Source of the DNA: an uncultured Desulfovibrio sp.
GTDB lineage: Bacteria; Desulfobacterota; Desulfovibrionia; Desulfovibrionales; Desulfovibrionaceae
Length of the DNA: 64,000 nucleotides
Direction of reading: 5' to 3'
Assembly (NCBI GenBank): GCA_913063155.1
Contig: CAJXYU010000003.1
Coordinates: 434,001 to 498,000, forward strand
This document shows, in pieces, positions 26,202 through 33,771 of the stretch. Every line of letters starts with the position of its first letter. The stretch's first letter is position 1. Position numbers and translations under genes: made by a program. The notes beneath the pieces were generated by a model that saw only the letters and a program-made list of their open reading frames with translations, searched no databases and had not been told where the DNA came from.

Positions 26202-28703
26202 ATGGGCATCGGCAAATACCAACCGGAAAAGATTGAGAATAAATGGCAGGACATCTGGCAGAAGTCCGGATGTTTCGAAGTGGAGGCCGACAAGAGCAAG
26301 GACAAGTACTATGTGCTTGAAATGTTCCCCTATCCGTCCGGCAAGATCCACATGGGACATGTGCGCAACTATTCCATCGGCGACGTGGTCGCCCGCTTCA
26401 AGGCCATGCAGGGCTACAACGTACTACACCCCATGGGTTGGGACGCCTTCGGCCTGCCCGCCGAGAACGCGGCCATCAAGAACAACTCCCACCCGGCCGC
26501 CTGGACCTACCAGAACATCTCCGAGATGCGCGAACAGCTGAAAAGGCTGGGTTATTCCTACGACTGGAGGCGCGAAATGGCTTCCTGTCGTCCGGAATAC
26601 TACAAGTGGGAGCAGCTTTTCTTCCTGAAATTCCTGGAAAAAGGTTTGATCTACCGCAAGAACTCACCGGTGAACTGGTGCCCGGACTGCCACACCGTGC
26701 TCGCCAACGAGCAGGTGGAGGACGGCCTGTGCTGGCGCTGCGATTCCGAGGTCCAGCAAAAGGACATGGAGCAGTGGTTCCTGCGCATCACTGATTACGC
26801 GGACGAACTTCTGGACGATCTGGATAGTCTGGACAAGGGCTGGCCCGAGCGCGTGTTGACCATGCAGCGCAACTGGATCGGCAAAAGCTACGGTTCGGAG
26901 CTGACCTTCCGTTTCAAGGGCATGGACGAGACCGTCACGGTCTTCACCACCCGACCGGACACCCTGTTCGGGGCCACCTTCATGAGCCTGGCCGCCGAAC
27001 ATCCGCTGGTGGAAAAACTCATAGAGAATTACGAAAAGGCCGATGAGGTACGCGCCTTCTGCGACAAGGTCCGCAACATGGACCGAATCAAGCGCGGCGC
27101 CGACGACCTGGAAAAGGAAGGCGTCTTCACCGGCGCGTACGTGGTCAACCCGGTCACAGGCAAGGACATGCCCGTCTACGTGGCCAACTTCGTGCTCATG
27201 GCCTACGGCACCGGCGCGGTTATGGCCGTTCCAGCCCACGACCAGCGCGATTTCGAGTTCGCCACCAAATACGATCTTCCCATGCAGGTGGTCATCAACC
27301 CGCCCGACCTGCACAAAAGCGGCGACATCCTCAATCTGGAGAACATGGACGCCGCATACACCGACCCCGGCTTCCTGGTGAATTCCGGCCAATTCGACGG
27401 CACGGACAACGAATCCGCCAAGAAGGCCGTGGTGGAACACCTGGACAAGGAAGGTTTGGGCAAAATGGCGGTCAACTACCGCCTGCGCGACTGGAACGTC
27501 TCCCGTCAGCGCTTCTGGGGCGCTCCCATCCCGGTCATGTACTGCGACGCCTGCGGGGTGGTGCCCGTGCCCGAGGATGAGCTGCCCGTGCAGCTGCCGG
27601 AGAACGCCCAGGTTCGGGCGGACGGACGCTCGCCGCTGCCCATGATGGACGAATTCGTAAACTGCACCTGCCCCAAGTGCGGCGGCGCGGCGCGGCGCGA
27701 GACCGACACCCTGGACACCTTCTTCGAATCCAGCTGGTACTTCCTGCGTTACTGCGACCCGCGAAACGCGGACGCTCCGTGGGATCGCGAGTCCCTGGAC
27801 TACTGGATGCAGGTGGACCAGTACATCGGCGGCATTGAGCACGCCATCCTGCATCTGCTCTACGCCCGCTTCTTCACCAAGCTGCTGCGCGACTGCGGCT
27901 ACGTCACTGCGGCCGAGCCGTTCGCCAACCTGCTCACTCAGGGCATGGTGCTCAAGGACGGCGCTAAAATGTCCAAGTCCAAGGGCAACGTGGTCGCTCC
28001 CAGCGAAATGATCAAAAAATACGGCGCGGACGCCACCCGCCTGTTCATTCTCTTTGCGGCTCCGCCTGCAAAGGAACTGGAATGGTCGGACCGCGGTATC
28101 GAAGGCGCGTATCGTTTCATCAACCGCCTCTGGCGACTGGTGGAGGACCTGGAAGAGGTGCTCACCCCGGCCAAGCCGGTCTCCTACAGCGACACCAAGT
28201 CGGAAGCGGCCAAGAACCTGCGCCGCAAGGAGCACGATACCATCCGCCGCGCCACCCGCGACATCGAGAACGATTTCCAGTTCAACACGGTCATAGCCGC
28301 CATCATGGAACTGGTGAACGAACTCTACGGCTGCAAAGAAGAACTCAAGGCCACCGAGCCCGAGGCCCTGTCCTCGGCCGTGGCCACCGTCCTGACCTTG
28401 CTCGCGCCCATTGCCCCGCACATCTGCGAGGAACTCTGGGAAGTACAGGGACACAAGGAACGCATGGTTGACCAGCCCTGGCCCACCCATGACGATTCCG
28501 CCCTGGTGCGGGACGAGGTCACCGTGGTCGTCCAAGTCTGCGGCAAGGTGCGCGGCAAGATTACCGTGCCCAACAACGCCCCGCAGGAAGACGTGGAAAA
28601 GGCCGCCATGGAGCAGGAAAACGTGACCAAGCACATCGAAGGCAAAACCGTGCGCAAGGTCATCGTCATCCCCAACAAACTGGTCAACATAGTGGCCAAC
28701 TAG
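26202..28703 (+). CDS. leuS: Leucyl-tRNA synthetase
   Basis: [42 protein letters not shown]. Confidence 0.97.
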
Positions 28704-28893: not shown

Positions 28894-31593
28894 CTATGGG
28901 ATCACCAGATTATCCGGCCCATCGGGCGGAGCAAACGCGGCCCCCCCTTCGGGCATGCGGGTCACCTGCCCCCATTTGTGCCCCGGCGGCGGGGAGATGG
29001 TGCAGCCTTCAATCGTATTGTGGTGGCTGTAGCCGCCATGAAAATTGACGTCCGTACCGATCTCGCAGTTGCGAACCACGTTGTGGGAGCTGGACCACTG
29101 GATGGTCAGATGACGGACATTGCGGATGACGGAGTCCTCAACCGTGCAGAAATGGCTGCGCGAGAACCGGAAATAACCGTTGCCCTTCTTGCCCTTGTTC
29201 CAGGCCCCGTCCACCAGTGCCCGCCGCACCCTGATGTCCGAGGACGATTCCATCCAGACCGGATGCCGTCCGGCCATGAGCACGGCAACATCCTCCACCA
29301 GGCAGCCCTCGGCCCATTTGAAGACAATGCCGTCCACCGCATACTCGGGCGCGAGATTCTCATATTTCCCGGCCACATCATCCGAGGTCATGCCCGGCAC
29401 CCGCTGCTCCAGACTAAAGCCGCTCAAAACAACGCTGCCGCGCATATCCGGCATGCGCACCTCGGCCCCCTCGGGAAGCTCGATTCCCGGGCCCTGTCGC
29501 AACAGAATGAAATCAGGTCCGCTGTCCTCCACCCTGCCGATGAACTGCCTGAGCCAGGGGTATTCCCTGCGCCAGAGCCGGGCGTCCAGCCTTTCGAAAA
29601 AAGCCTCGTCATTGGGCGCGGCGATCCAGACCGGCGCCGCCCCCTCTTTCCACCCGCTTTCGAACTCAAGAGGCACAAGGTTGGAGACCGGATGGTAGAC
29701 GGCATTGAGTACAGCCTTTCGGGGCCCCCGCGAACCCTCGACCTTGATGACCGCGTCGCCCTGGTCCGCCGTGAGCAGGGAGACCAGTCTGGTAGCAGCC
29801 TGTCCCTGCCCCCGTATGGTCACGTTGCTGCGCCGGATAAATACGGGCGTCTTTACCGGGAATTCACCCTCGGGAAGGATGATGGTCAGCGGGCGTCCCT
29901 CCCCCGCCCGCTCCAGGGCCTGCATGACGGCACCGCCGATGTCGCTTCCCGGTTCGACATCCAACACCGTCACCTGTTCCTGGCTCGGCTGTTCGTGGGG
30001 AGGCCGATGCACTGAAAACTCGGCCACCACATGGCGGAACGAAGGCAGGCTGATAGCCCCTGCCGCCAGTCCGCAAAACAGAAACAGAAGCGTGAAGTTG
30101 AGGATGATGAGCAGCATGCGGATGGAATACTGCAAGGACTGCCGGGCGACATCATGGCCGGTGATCTTCTGGTCGCCGCCCCGCTTCTTGTGCCAGATCT
30201 GCTTGTCCAGATTGAACATGGTCACCACTTTGACCGCAGCCCCGGCCCACTGGTTGTAGAGCATGAGCGGCAGATGGGTGGTGCGCAGCACAAATCCCTG
30301 GAACACATAGACCCAAAACAGTCCGAGGCGGGTAATGATCACCCAGGAAAAGTAAAAAGCCAGATAGAACGGGGAAACGAAAATACTCAACATGAGCACA
30401 CCGGCCGGCCCCACCAACGGCGTCCAGGTGGTGAAACGCTGGTCCAGGACACACCACCAGATGAAGCCGCCCATGGGTCCCGGCCCCAGCTTGATGGCCC
30501 GCATGTTGTTGCGCAACATGTTTCCGTACCAGCGTTTCATGAGCGAAATGCTGGTGACGAGAAATTCTTTTTGCCGCGACTCCATGGCCACTACGGGAGC
30601 ATCCGGGATGTAAAGCATTTCGTAGCCGTTCTTGAGCAGATAATACCAGGTGGACTTGTCGTCGCCCATGAGAAAACGGAACCGTCCGAACAGCCAGCCC
30701 TCCAGGTAGTCGGCCTCCACAAAACGGATGAACTGCTCCTTCACGACCACTTCCGCGCGATACATGGAGAACCGGCCAGTGATGGTCAAAACCCGTTTGG
30801 ACAGACTGTGGGAATGAAACTGGTGGTTTCGTTGTGCGAACTTGAGAGAATACCAATCGTGAAAAAGAGAGGAGACATCCTCCTGTATGCCGATGTTGTC
30901 CGTGGTCAGGGCGGCCATGTTCGGGTGGGTGCGAAAAAAGGGCAGACACTTGGCAAAGGTCCCCGGCTGTACCAGGGTGTCGCCGTCCATGAAGACAACC
31001 ACGTCGTTGCAGGCGTCCGGGTGCCACTGCAGGACGTCGTTGAAGTCCCTGGCGATGGCCCTAAGCGCATGGCCCATGGCGATGCGTTTGCCATGCTCCT
31101 GATGCATGAACACCAGTTGGATGGAATCGCCGCCGTGAACGCCGACCACGGACCGGGAAATGAAATCCGCCTCCTTGTCCGAGCCTACGCTGGCCACGAT
31201 CATGACTTGGCTGGGCAGGTCCAGGACATCGCGAACCAGAGCCTGAAAGACCCGCTCCGTAACGTTGAAATCCTCCTTGAACGAAGGAACCATGATGTAC
31301 AGCCGTTCGGGATAAGGCTGCTTCACCGCGTCCGCTTCGGCCCGCAACCTTGGGAAAACACGCCGCTTGTAAATCACGTGGCGCACGGCGTGGATGACCT
31401 GCCAGGCGTAGCGCCACATACCAAACAGGGATATGGCCACCAGGGCCTGCCGCTTGATGTACCAGGCCCGCTCGGGCAAAGCCCAGAGCACCAAGACGGC
31501 CACGGCAAGATAGGCCAACGTGGGCGGGATGGCTTTCAGCACTGCCTGCGGAACAGGCCTGCGTTGCAGGGAGCTACCGGCTTTCGGCATCAA
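28894..31593 (-). CDS. Alg8-like family 2 glycosyltransferase fused to C-terminal right-handed beta-helix domain
   Basis: VPSFKEDFNVTERVFQALVRDVL...VVVFMDGDTLVQPG...ESRQKEFLVTSISLMKRWYGNMLRNN...; C-terminus with rung-like NVTIRGQG / CLVEDVAVLMAG / CTVEDSVIRNVRHLTIQ / NVVRNCEIG / NTIEGCTIS. Confidence 0.82.
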   Translation of the reverse strand: MMPKAGSSLQRRPVPQAVLKAIPPTLAYLAVAVLVLWALPERAWYIKRQALVAISLFGMWRYAWQVIHAVRHVIYKRRVFPRLRAEADAVKQPYPERLYIMVPSFKEDFNVTERVFQALVRDVLDLPSQVMIVASVGSDKEADFISRSVVGVHGGDSIQLVFMHQEHGKRIAMGHALRAIARDFNDVLQWHPDACNDVVVFMDGDTLVQPGTFAKCLPFFRTHPNMAALTTDNIGIQEDVSSLFHDWYSLKFAQRNHQFHSHSLSKRVLTITGRFSMYRAEVVVKEQFIRFVEADYLEGWLFGRFRFLMGDDKSTWYYLLKNGYEMLYIPDAPVVAMESRQKEFLVTSISLMKRWYGNMLRNNMRAIKLGPGPMGGFIWWCVLDQRFTTWTPLVGPAGVLMLSIFVSPFYLAFYFSWVIITRLGLFWVYVFQGFVLRTTHLPLMLYNQWAGAAVKVVTMFNLDKQIWHKKRGGDQKITGHDVARQSLQYSIRMLLIILNFTLLFLFCGLAAGAISLPSFRHVVAEFSVHRPPHEQPSQEQVTVLDVEPGSDIGGAVMQALERAGEGRPLTIILPEGEFPVKTPVFIRRSNVTIRGQGQAATRLVSLLTADQGDAVIKVEGSRGPRKAVLNAVYHPVSNLVPLEFESGWKEGAAPVWIAAPNDEAFFERLDARLWRREYPWLRQFIGRVEDSGPDFILLRQGPGIELPEGAEVRMPDMRGSVVLSGFSLEQRVPGMTSDDVAGKYENLAPEYAVDGIVFKWAEGCLVEDVAVLMAGRHPVWMESSSDIRVRRALVDGAWNKGKKGNGYFRFSRSHFCTVEDSVIRNVRHLTIQWSSSHNVVRNCEIGTDVNFHGGYSHHNTIEGCTISPPPGHKWGQVTRMPEGGAAFAPPDGPDNLVIP

Positions 31594-33139
31594 GCGCCCC
31601 TGACAGTTGAGGCAATTTCCCCAGCACAGGTGTCCTTACCCGTACTTCCACCCCGAGCCCTGGCACCAGACTGGGGTCGTCGCGGTCCAGCAACACCTTG
31701 ACCGGAACCTCGCTCATGCTTGTTTCCAGGTCCTGTGAAACCACGCCGCCTGCGGCCATGGCATGATGGCCGATGGCCTGGATCACGCCTGTAAGAAAAT
31801 GGCCTGACGAAGGCACGTAGACTTCGGCCTCGTTCCCCGGCGCCAGGCGCTTGGCTTCCTCAAAAGTGAAACGGGCCAGCACCCAGGGTCTGGTGTCAGT
31901 GACCATGAGAGTCAGTACGCTCTCGCCCGGACGCAGGAACGTGCCGTCCACCCGCTTGATGGAGTAAACCATGCCGTCGCGCGGGCTGGTGACCCGGGTC
32001 ATCTGAAGCCTGGACAGAGCCTTCAACATTTCATACTGACGCAGTTCCAGGGTCTTTTGCTGCACCTGGATACGGCCGCGTATTTCCCGCAGCTGCCCTC
32101 GGGCAGCGCCGTCGGACAGGTATTTGCCGTCCTTGGCGCTCCTGGCGTTGCGCTGGGCGAGTTCCAACTCTTCCTGAAGCTCGGCCAGTTCCGCCTTTTC
32201 CTCCAAATATTCCTTGCGGCGCAAATCCCAGAAGGAGCGGCTCACGGCCCCGGACTTCACCAAGGCCTCAGCCCGTTTGAATTCCTTTTCGGCCAGCTCG
32301 ATCTTGGCCCTGGTTCCGGCTATCTTCTGCTGGACCATCTCCACTTCGTGGTCTGCCGCACTACGGTACAGGCCCAAAGCCCGTTCCTCTTCCTGCAGCA
32401 AAGTATAGAGCAATTCGAGCTCCTGTTTTTCCACGTTGATACGTAGTTTGATCTGCTCCAGGTCGCGACGCATCGCGTCATCGTCTATGGCGAAAAGCAG
32501 CTGTCCCTTCTTGACGTTCTCCCCGTCGACGACGGAGATCTTTTCCAGAAAACCGCCCACTTCAGGGGCCATGTCGATGAGCGCGCCCGAGACCACCGCC
32601 CTGGTGCTCACCGCCCGGGAAAGGTTGTTGTAGAGAATGAACATGACCAGGCCGACCGCGAACAGTCCCAGGAGCCAATAGAGAATGGCCCGGCTGCGGA
32701 AGGTGCGCTTGTAGGCGGTCTGCTCCGCCACTGTCAGGGGCCGTTCCGTCTCGATGGGGATCTCGGCCGCATCCACCTTGGCTATGATGCCCTGCACGTC
32801 ATCTATCTTTCCCTCGATGTTGGCCTGAATGTAAGCCTTGAGCAGCATCTTGCTCTTGTCGTTGAGTGCTTCAAAGGAAAAACCGGCCTCCTGATCATCT
32901 ATGCGACGCACCCTGGCCAGGGCGTCGAAGGTCACGTTCATTCCAGCCAGTGGAAGAACAAAGGTCACCTGCCCTTCCCAGTCATCGGACAAACCGCTCT
33001 CGGGGACCTCACACTTGAATCCCTCCAGCGACCAGTCCAGTATGCTGCACTTGCACTCATCAATGTAGGCATGGGCAGGCAGTTGGATACGATGCGATTT
33101 CCGTATCTGATTCTTTTCAAATTCCGTTGGCACGTGCAC
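31574..33139 (-). CDS. PilZ-domain + HlyD-type periplasmic adaptor (Alg44-like c-di-GMP co-polymerase)
   Basis: N-terminal RKSHRI (RxxxR) and DWSLEG (D/NxSxxG) PilZ motifs; TM; VVSGALIDMAPEVGGFLEKISVVDGENVKKGQLLFAIDD HlyD barrel; overlaps GT gene by 20 bp. Confidence 0.88.
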   Translation of the reverse strand: MHVPTEFEKNQIRKSHRIQLPAHAYIDECKCSILDWSLEGFKCEVPESGLSDDWEGQVTFVLPLAGMNVTFDALARVRRIDDQEAGFSFEALNDKSKMLLKAYIQANIEGKIDDVQGIIAKVDAAEIPIETERPLTVAEQTAYKRTFRSRAILYWLLGLFAVGLVMFILYNNLSRAVSTRAVVSGALIDMAPEVGGFLEKISVVDGENVKKGQLLFAIDDDAMRRDLEQIKLRINVEKQELELLYTLLQEEERALGLYRSAADHEVEMVQQKIAGTRAKIELAEKEFKRAEALVKSGAVSRSFWDLRRKEYLEEKAELAELQEELELAQRNARSAKDGKYLSDGAARGQLREIRGRIQVQQKTLELRQYEMLKALSRLQMTRVTSPRDGMVYSIKRVDGTFLRPGESVLTLMVTDTRPWVLARFTFEEAKRLAPGNEAEVYVPSSGHFLTGVIQAIGHHAMAAGGVVSQDLETSMSEVPVKVLLDRDDPSLVPGLGVEVRVRTPVLGKLPQLSGALDAESR

Positions 33140-33276: not shown

Positions 33277-33771
33277 ATGAACATATCAAAATATATACTG
33301 ATATTCATATTATTAATTGGCGTATCGGGCTGCGGCTACGGGTTCCCCACGGGCGAACACGCCTCGCTTCCCAAGGACTATCGCTCCCTGGCCATCGCAG
33401 AGGTCGAGCATCCTACGACCTACCCCTGGATGGAGGCGAGGCTGCGTTCCCTGCTGCGTGACGAACTCAACCGCAGAAACTGGGTGACCTGGGAGAACAA
33501 GAACAAAGCCAAAGCCCTCATCAAACTCTATGTCGAAAAGTACTCCCGCAAGGCAACGGTCACCGGCGTCGACCAGGAAACCCTGCGGTCCTCGGCCAGC
33601 ATCACCATGCGCGCCGTCATCGTTTCCCGCGACACCGGCCGGCAGCTCTGGAGCTCGGGAACCATAAGCACGAATTGGCCCTATTACACCGGCGAGGAAG
33701 ATGAGGCGGACGCACAGGTCACCGAACGCGCCATCCAGATCCTGGCGGAGAGACTCGCTCAGAACTACTAG
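33277..33771 (+). CDS. lptE: LPS assembly lipoprotein LptE
   Basis: Lipobox VSGCGYGF; SLAIAEVEHPTTYPWMEARLRSLLRDELNRR; located before holA. Confidence 0.82.
   Translation: MNISKYILIFILLIGVSGCGYGFPTGEHASLPKDYRSLAIAEVEHPTTYPWMEARLRSLLRDELNRRNWVTWENKNKAKALIKLYVEKYSRKATVTGVDQETLRSSASITMRAVIVSRDTGRQLWSSGTISTNWPYYTGEEDEADAQVTERAIQILAERLAQNY

Follow-up and report, generated by a model that had tools for sequence, protein, structure and literature searches.

Among the described polysaccharide synthases, the Alg8-Alg44 pair of Pseudomonas, which is accompanied by AlgG, AlgX, AlgK, and AlgE, combines a family 2 glycosyltransferase (GT2) having five transmembrane (TM) helices with a partner consisting of a PilZ domain, a TM helix, and a membrane-fusion part. 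The nearest known two-gene system is the rhizobial BgsBA system for mixed-linkage beta-glucan, a bicistronic unit of an HlyD-like protein and a GT2 that is activated by cyclic di-GMP (c-di-GMP), sensed by the C-terminus of the glycosyltransferase BgsA (PMC9495663). Atypical alginate operons without the outer-membrane genes algKE and without modification genes are described for deep-sea bacteria in another report (PMC7112194). Here we compare with these systems a two-gene unit, P0002-P0001, on the minus strand of the window, i.e., the whole 64,000-nucleotide stretch of DNA that was analysed (positions 434001-498000 of contig C3 in the 4.3-Mb genome G000, family Desulfovibrionaceae). P0002 (31574..33139, 521 aa) is a PilZ-TM-HlyD adaptor and putative c-di-GMP receptor of the Alg44-like kind, and P0001 (28894..31593, 899 aa) is a fusion of a GT2 synthase with a beta-helix.

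The pair shares with Alg8-Alg44 a predicted five-TM GT2 and the PilZ-TM-membrane-fusion partner, with PilZ motifs kept. However, the beta-helix, which is a free periplasmic protein in Pseudomonas, is here fused to the synthase and has no sequence relation to AlgG, the adaptor carries a long hairpin with a TolC motif, relatives possess a TolC-type channel, and AlgE, AlgX, and GDP-mannose dehydrogenase were not found in the window genome. BgsBA resembles the locus in pairing an HlyD-like gene with a GT2 gene, but here PilZ resides on the HlyD partner, and no beta-helix is described for BgsBA, which was likened by its published description (PMC9495663). The deep-sea operons, also compared by description, differ in that this description mentions losses and neither a GT-beta-helix fusion nor a TolC-type partner (PMC7112194). 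The Alg8/Alg44 kind is thus already known, and what appears to be new, judging by sequence and models, is the fused beta-helix and the TolC-type third gene in relatives; no description of either was found in the open-licence literature. We consider it moderately probable that the pair is a c-di-GMP-gated, Alg8/Alg44-related exopolysaccharide synthase with a polymer-acting beta-helix fixed at its exit side and an HlyD adaptor passing the polymer to a TolC-type channel.

The synthase part of P0001 (residues 1-510; 30064..31593, minus strand) matches Glyco_tranf_2_3 (PF13641) at residues 96-358 with an E-value of 1e-33 and contains the GT2 motifs MDGD (D203, D205), GDDK (D311, D312, K313), and LxxRW (R354, W355). 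Foldseek comparison of this part with PDB reports hyaluronan synthase 7sp8 (E 1.5e-12) and cellulose synthase 4hg6 (E 6e-8), which have the same processive membrane GT2 fold. In contrast to them, P0001 has LxxRW instead of QxxRW, a separate PilZ partner, and the fused beta-helix. According to the model and hydropathy, TM-like helices are located at 14-37, 48-66, 376-405, 409-430, and 486-510; a further helix at 440-460 shows lower hydrophobicity (0.9-1.4), contains the invariant residues Q448, W449, and K455, with the invariant Q465, W467, and K469 after it. This helix is presumably the counterpart of the cytosolic amphipathic helix in hyaluronan synthases. Since it is counted as amphipathic, five TM helices are left, and the beta-helix would therefore lie in the periplasm. 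The same number of TM helices has been described for Alg8 (PMC8461298).

As for its relatives, the GT core is 37-39% identical to unfused Alg8-like GTs over 424-490 aa, compared with ~22% over short stretches for E. coli BcsA and PgaC. The synthase can be called Alg8-like by this relatedness, within a comparison set that contains no authentic Pseudomonas Alg8. In the tree, fusion GTs split from unfused Alg8-like GTs at 99/100 support, with E. coli PgaC and BcsA at a great distance; this tree agrees with the fusion having arisen once, although its midpoint root is placed on very long outgroup branches. Both fusion and unfused GTs have GDDKS or GDDKT, as well as LxxRWxGN in place of QxxRW. The unfused GT of Jannaschia belongs to an operon with a nucleotide-sugar dehydrogenase, a ManC-type nucleotidyltransferase, a NosD/AlgG-like protein, and AlgX, and that of Rhizobium is found near an AlgG-like protein. 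The GT part alone was matched in three Halomonadaceae loci and one alphaproteobacterial locus. One Halomonadaceae region (L020:6514-13326), which looks like an unfused cousin, encodes a nucleotide-sugar dehydrogenase, an Alg8-like GT, a PilZ-HlyD protein, a PL14 lyase, and an alginate lyase.

The C-terminal domain of P0001 (~360 residues, ~540-899; 28894..29976, minus strand) has only sub-threshold beta-helix matches among sequence profiles, and the AlgG profile NF038177 has no match in P0001. Sequence searches of PDB with the fusion and with the third protein considered below returned almost nothing, and folds were therefore compared. In the AlphaFold model of P0001 (mean pLDDT 81), residues 540-899 form a strand ladder in blocks with pLDDT mostly between 80 and 97, for which Foldseek reports K1 capsule lyase, other beta-helix lyases, and phage tailspikes in PDB. 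By model and Foldseek, P0001 would share the right-handed parallel beta-helix fold with AlgG. A phage origin of the domain is not claimed: the fold matches include tailspikes, but PHROG sequence matches are very weak. A DPHD motif associated with AlgG is lacking in P0001, but two AlgG-like proteins lack it as well, and it was dropped as a test. Across 21 fusions, 39 beta-helix residues are invariant, many of them polar or charged and mostly within 798-874, including N799, K800, N805, Y807, R812, R827, H828, Q832, W833, N838, D848, N850, H852, N859, and H872. The fraction of invariant columns in a 14-sequence alignment is 24% for the C-terminal half of the beta-helix versus 27% for the GT core. 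This cluster resembles an active site, which suggests an enzyme; its basic residues would suit an anionic polymer, and the domain may modify or cleave the polymer.

P0002 has the Alg44-type layout in profile searches, i.e., an N-terminal PilZ domain (~11-105), a single TM helix (~150-172), and an HlyD-type periplasmic membrane-fusion part with a long alpha-hairpin. Pfam reports PilZ (PF07238) at 11-105 with an E-value of 9.9e-6, as well as HlyD_D23 (PF16576, E 5e-11) and HlyD_3 (PF13437, E 3e-10). The motifs RKSHR (R13xxxR17) and DWSLEG (D35xSxxG40) match RxxxR and (D/N)xSxxG, both of which are invariant or nearly so among the adaptors of the family, and the PilZ domain would accordingly be expected to bind c-di-GMP. 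The pattern RxxxLxxxxxxS (the RLS motif) at the hairpin tip marks adaptors that dock on TolC (PMC3391258). It is found exactly and at the same position in 9/9 Desulfovibrionaceae adaptors; in P0002 it reads RAEALVKSGAVS (residues 289-300, predicted hairpin tip; 32240..32275, minus strand). In contrast, none of the 12 adaptors from lineages with a dedicated channel has it (2 of the 12 are partial). In one relative (G213, L038:6428-8184) the PilZ-HlyD gene is broken into two overlapping frames, by a frameshift or an assembly error.

A preliminary description of the window, made from the sequence alone, had named a PilZ-TM-HlyD protein with RKSHR and DWSLEG, and an adjoining protein with an N-terminal Alg8-type processive GT2 and a C-terminal beta-helix. 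The former is present with Pfam support, the GT2 assignment agrees with the PF13641 match, motifs, and relatives, and the beta-helix, matched below threshold by sequence, is recovered by AlphaFold and Foldseek. The periplasmic side, on which that description depended, is favoured by the predicted topology. The reported 20-bp gene overlap holds for the TTG start of P0001 (31593) and becomes 17 bp if the ATG immediately after it (31590) is the start.

In all 14 loci with flanking sequence from outside Desulfovibrionaceae, the fusion is followed, on either strand, by a member of a single divergent gene family, and this third gene is present in 10/10 tested non-Desulfovibrionaceae fusion genomes; in two of them the fusion contig stops early and the gene lies at a contig edge. 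It is absent from all nine fusion-bearing Desulfovibrionaceae genomes and from the three GT-only genomes, and a search of the window genome gave one weak 16-bit match inside an 870-aa frame, which was not accepted. Pfam reports weak or sub-threshold OEP signals for two members of the family. The model of the third protein, however, has long helices and a beta-hairpin in TolC-type order, and the 35 PDB entries that it matches at E <= 0.001 all belong to the TolC family. Five other OEP proteins are encoded in the window genome. An N-terminal SPOR-like domain is seen in some channel proteins (in L008, PF05036 exceeds its cut-off with 26.2 bits), and the channel of L008 and that of L014 are each followed by a separate SPOR-like protein, a possible peptidoglycan link (L005:7814-9343, L008:6743-8644, L008:8768-9520, and L014:3422-4534).

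Because relatives have an adjacent TolC-type channel and Desulfovibrionaceae adaptors carry the RLS motif, these observations suggest that the polymer exits via a dedicated or shared TolC-type channel rather than via AlgK/AlgE. The simplest reading is that Desulfovibrionaceae probably use a general TolC-like channel and that other lineages have co-evolved with a private one. The arrangement would resemble tripartite efflux pumps and type I secretion (HlyD/AcrA/MacA-TolC) in the RLS adaptor and, in relatives, the TolC-type outer channel, but a polysaccharide synthase replaces the ABC, RND, or MFS transporter and a cytoplasmic PilZ gate is added.

Regarding distribution, a scan of 84,980 species genomes gave 21 relatives, with complete fusions in Halodesulfovibrio, Desulfobulbaceae, Campylobacterales (including Sulfurimonas, Sulfurospirillum, and Helicobacteraceae MAGs, i.e., metagenome-assembled genomes), and Gammaproteobacteria at 34-54% identity to P0001. 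The search for further GT2-beta-helix fusions proposed in the preliminary description thus revealed a family, in Desulfovibrionaceae as well as in the latter three lineages. Within Desulfovibrionaceae the beta-helix occurs in 9/247 sampled genomes, always in a frame of ~900 aa, and distant copies are 50-63% identical over the full length. The PilZ-HlyD gene is directly upstream in all nine, and elsewhere it is beside the fusion wherever flank exists. A phylum-wide sample of 345 genomes contained no additional copy, and the system is therefore rare and patchy. A fusion unique to the window genome is ruled out by this multi-phylum family, and a chance open reading frame or frame artefact by homologues across the whole fusion in several phyla (34-63% identity).

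As for the product, the window genome encodes two full PF03721 nucleotide-sugar dehydrogenases, one UDP-glucose-dehydrogenase-like and one TviB-like; their best NCBIfam equivalog models are TuaD (UDP-glucose dehydrogenase) and TviB, each below the equivalog cut-off. It contains no third full PF03721 protein that could be a GDP-mannose dehydrogenase. AlgE (PF13372), the porin type whose presence elsewhere in the genome had been raised in the preliminary description, has zero matches there, and so has AlgX (PF16822), although the latter model is silent in control genomes and does find AlgX in L040. Since GDP-mannose dehydrogenase, AlgX, and AlgE were not found, alginate is an unlikely product. 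A polymer of a UDP-derived uronic acid would be a guess.

In the proposed mechanism, the PilZ domain of the adaptor, whose motifs are intact, would take up c-di-GMP, and the adaptor would switch on the processive GT2. The latter, with its active-site motifs in place, would polymerise a nucleotide sugar and, as the fold match to hyaluronan and cellulose synthases suggests, extrude the chain via its own membrane channel. The chain would then exit beside the beta-helix and be modified or trimmed, most likely by a uronic-acid C5-epimerase or lyase activity, to which the fold and the conserved K/R/H/D/N cluster point. Finally, the long hairpin of the adaptor would dock on a TolC-type channel, which would be the dedicated adjacent one, seen as gene and fold, in Campylobacterales, Desulfobulbaceae, and Gammaproteobacteria, and probably a general TolC-like one in Desulfovibrionaceae, where the RLS motif is seen. 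The preliminary description had proposed a reduced, c-di-GMP-gated machine coupling polymerisation and modification in one polypeptide, and had left the outer-membrane exit open. Of this, the fusion and the intact PilZ motifs stand, c-di-GMP binding and polymer modification or cleavage keep the status of predictions, and the exit is narrowed by the adjacent TolC-type gene in relatives and the RLS motif of the window adaptor, both of which make the layout more like a tripartite pump than a stripped alginate machine. More tentatively, and with somewhat less than even confidence, the locus may represent a distinct secretion class, in which a synthase with a covalent periplasmic tailoring enzyme, a PilZ-gated HlyD adaptor, and a TolC-type channel form a tripartite-pump-like conduit instead of one made of a TPR protein and a beta-barrel porin.

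Several points weigh against the proposed mechanism. The model of P0001 is based on a 14-sequence alignment and has a pTM of 0.54, which makes the relative domain placement unreliable, and that of the channel reaches a pLDDT of ~85-95 in its helical core but 66 overall and does not resolve the first ~120 residues. The window genome has no genetically linked channel, and the RLS contrast is confounded with phylogeny, as the nine adaptors with the motif all belong to a single family. The GT and adaptor set lacks a direct comparison with authentic Pseudomonas Alg8 and Alg44 sequences. Moreover, the beta-helix is unrelated to AlgG (hhalign probability of 0.5% with an AlgG-like protein), and a beta-helix fold alone is no proof of catalysis. 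The domain might instead lack catalytic activity and serve as a periplasmic guide or scaffold, leading the unaltered chain from the synthase to the adaptor and channel, a role that the fixed 1:1 fusion would fit, as would the lack of an above-cut-off match to known epimerase or lyase families and of an AlgG relation. Such a role is nevertheless unlikely, since the best-conserved positions hold polar or charged residues that group together as in an active site (K800, R812, R827, H828, D848, N850, H852, N859, and H872).

The nearest relatives of the GT, Alg8-like proteins of alginate-type operons, and the Alg44-type partner would also agree with a true alginate (mannuronan/guluronan) synthase with a fused epimerase. 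This is quite improbable, however, given just two full nucleotide-sugar dehydrogenases, neither of the GDP-mannose type, the failure to find AlgX and AlgE in the genome, and a beta-helix without AlgG relation. The same unmatched AlgE and AlgX families, together with the lack of a nearby channel gene, the patchiness within the family (9/247), and the adaptor gene split over two frames in L038, could indicate that the pair is what is left of an alginate operon after decay, with no working secretion route. Decay is nevertheless very improbable: both window frames are intact, the motifs do not vary across phyla, all nine Desulfovibrionaceae adaptors retain the RLS motif, and distant copies in this family still show 50-63% identity along their entire length.

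According to open reading frames and family profiles, the two-gene unit with its two uninterrupted frames stands alone between leuS (26202..28703, plus strand, convergent; TIGR00396, 1132 bits) and lptE (33277..33771, plus strand, divergent; PF04390, 33.4 bits vs cut-off 23), as the preliminary description had it, and no AlgK-, AlgE-, AlgX-, or AlgG-type genes are near the pair. A holA-like gene is also found in the flank (TIGR01128, 78.3 bits, slightly below the cut-off of 80). In G+C and third-position G+C the pair differs little from its neighbours, which neither favours nor disfavours a foreign origin. In G148, a genome of the same genus, the pair occupies the same site, divergent from lptE-holA (L035:4466-10338); lptE and holA were not found next to the pair in the stretches of other relatives. 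About 1 kb past the window end, at G000:C3:499034-499351, is the best PilZ match in the genome.

With the beta-helix built into the synthase, the system is a simple target, of two or three genes, for structural study of how synthesis, modification, and export are coupled. A TolC-type exit, if correct, would connect the secretion of polysaccharides by synthases with tripartite efflux and type I secretion. The family also suggests that sulfate reducers, as well as members of Campylobacterales, Desulfobulbaceae, and Gammaproteobacteria that are represented largely by metagenomes, make an uncharacterised polymer.

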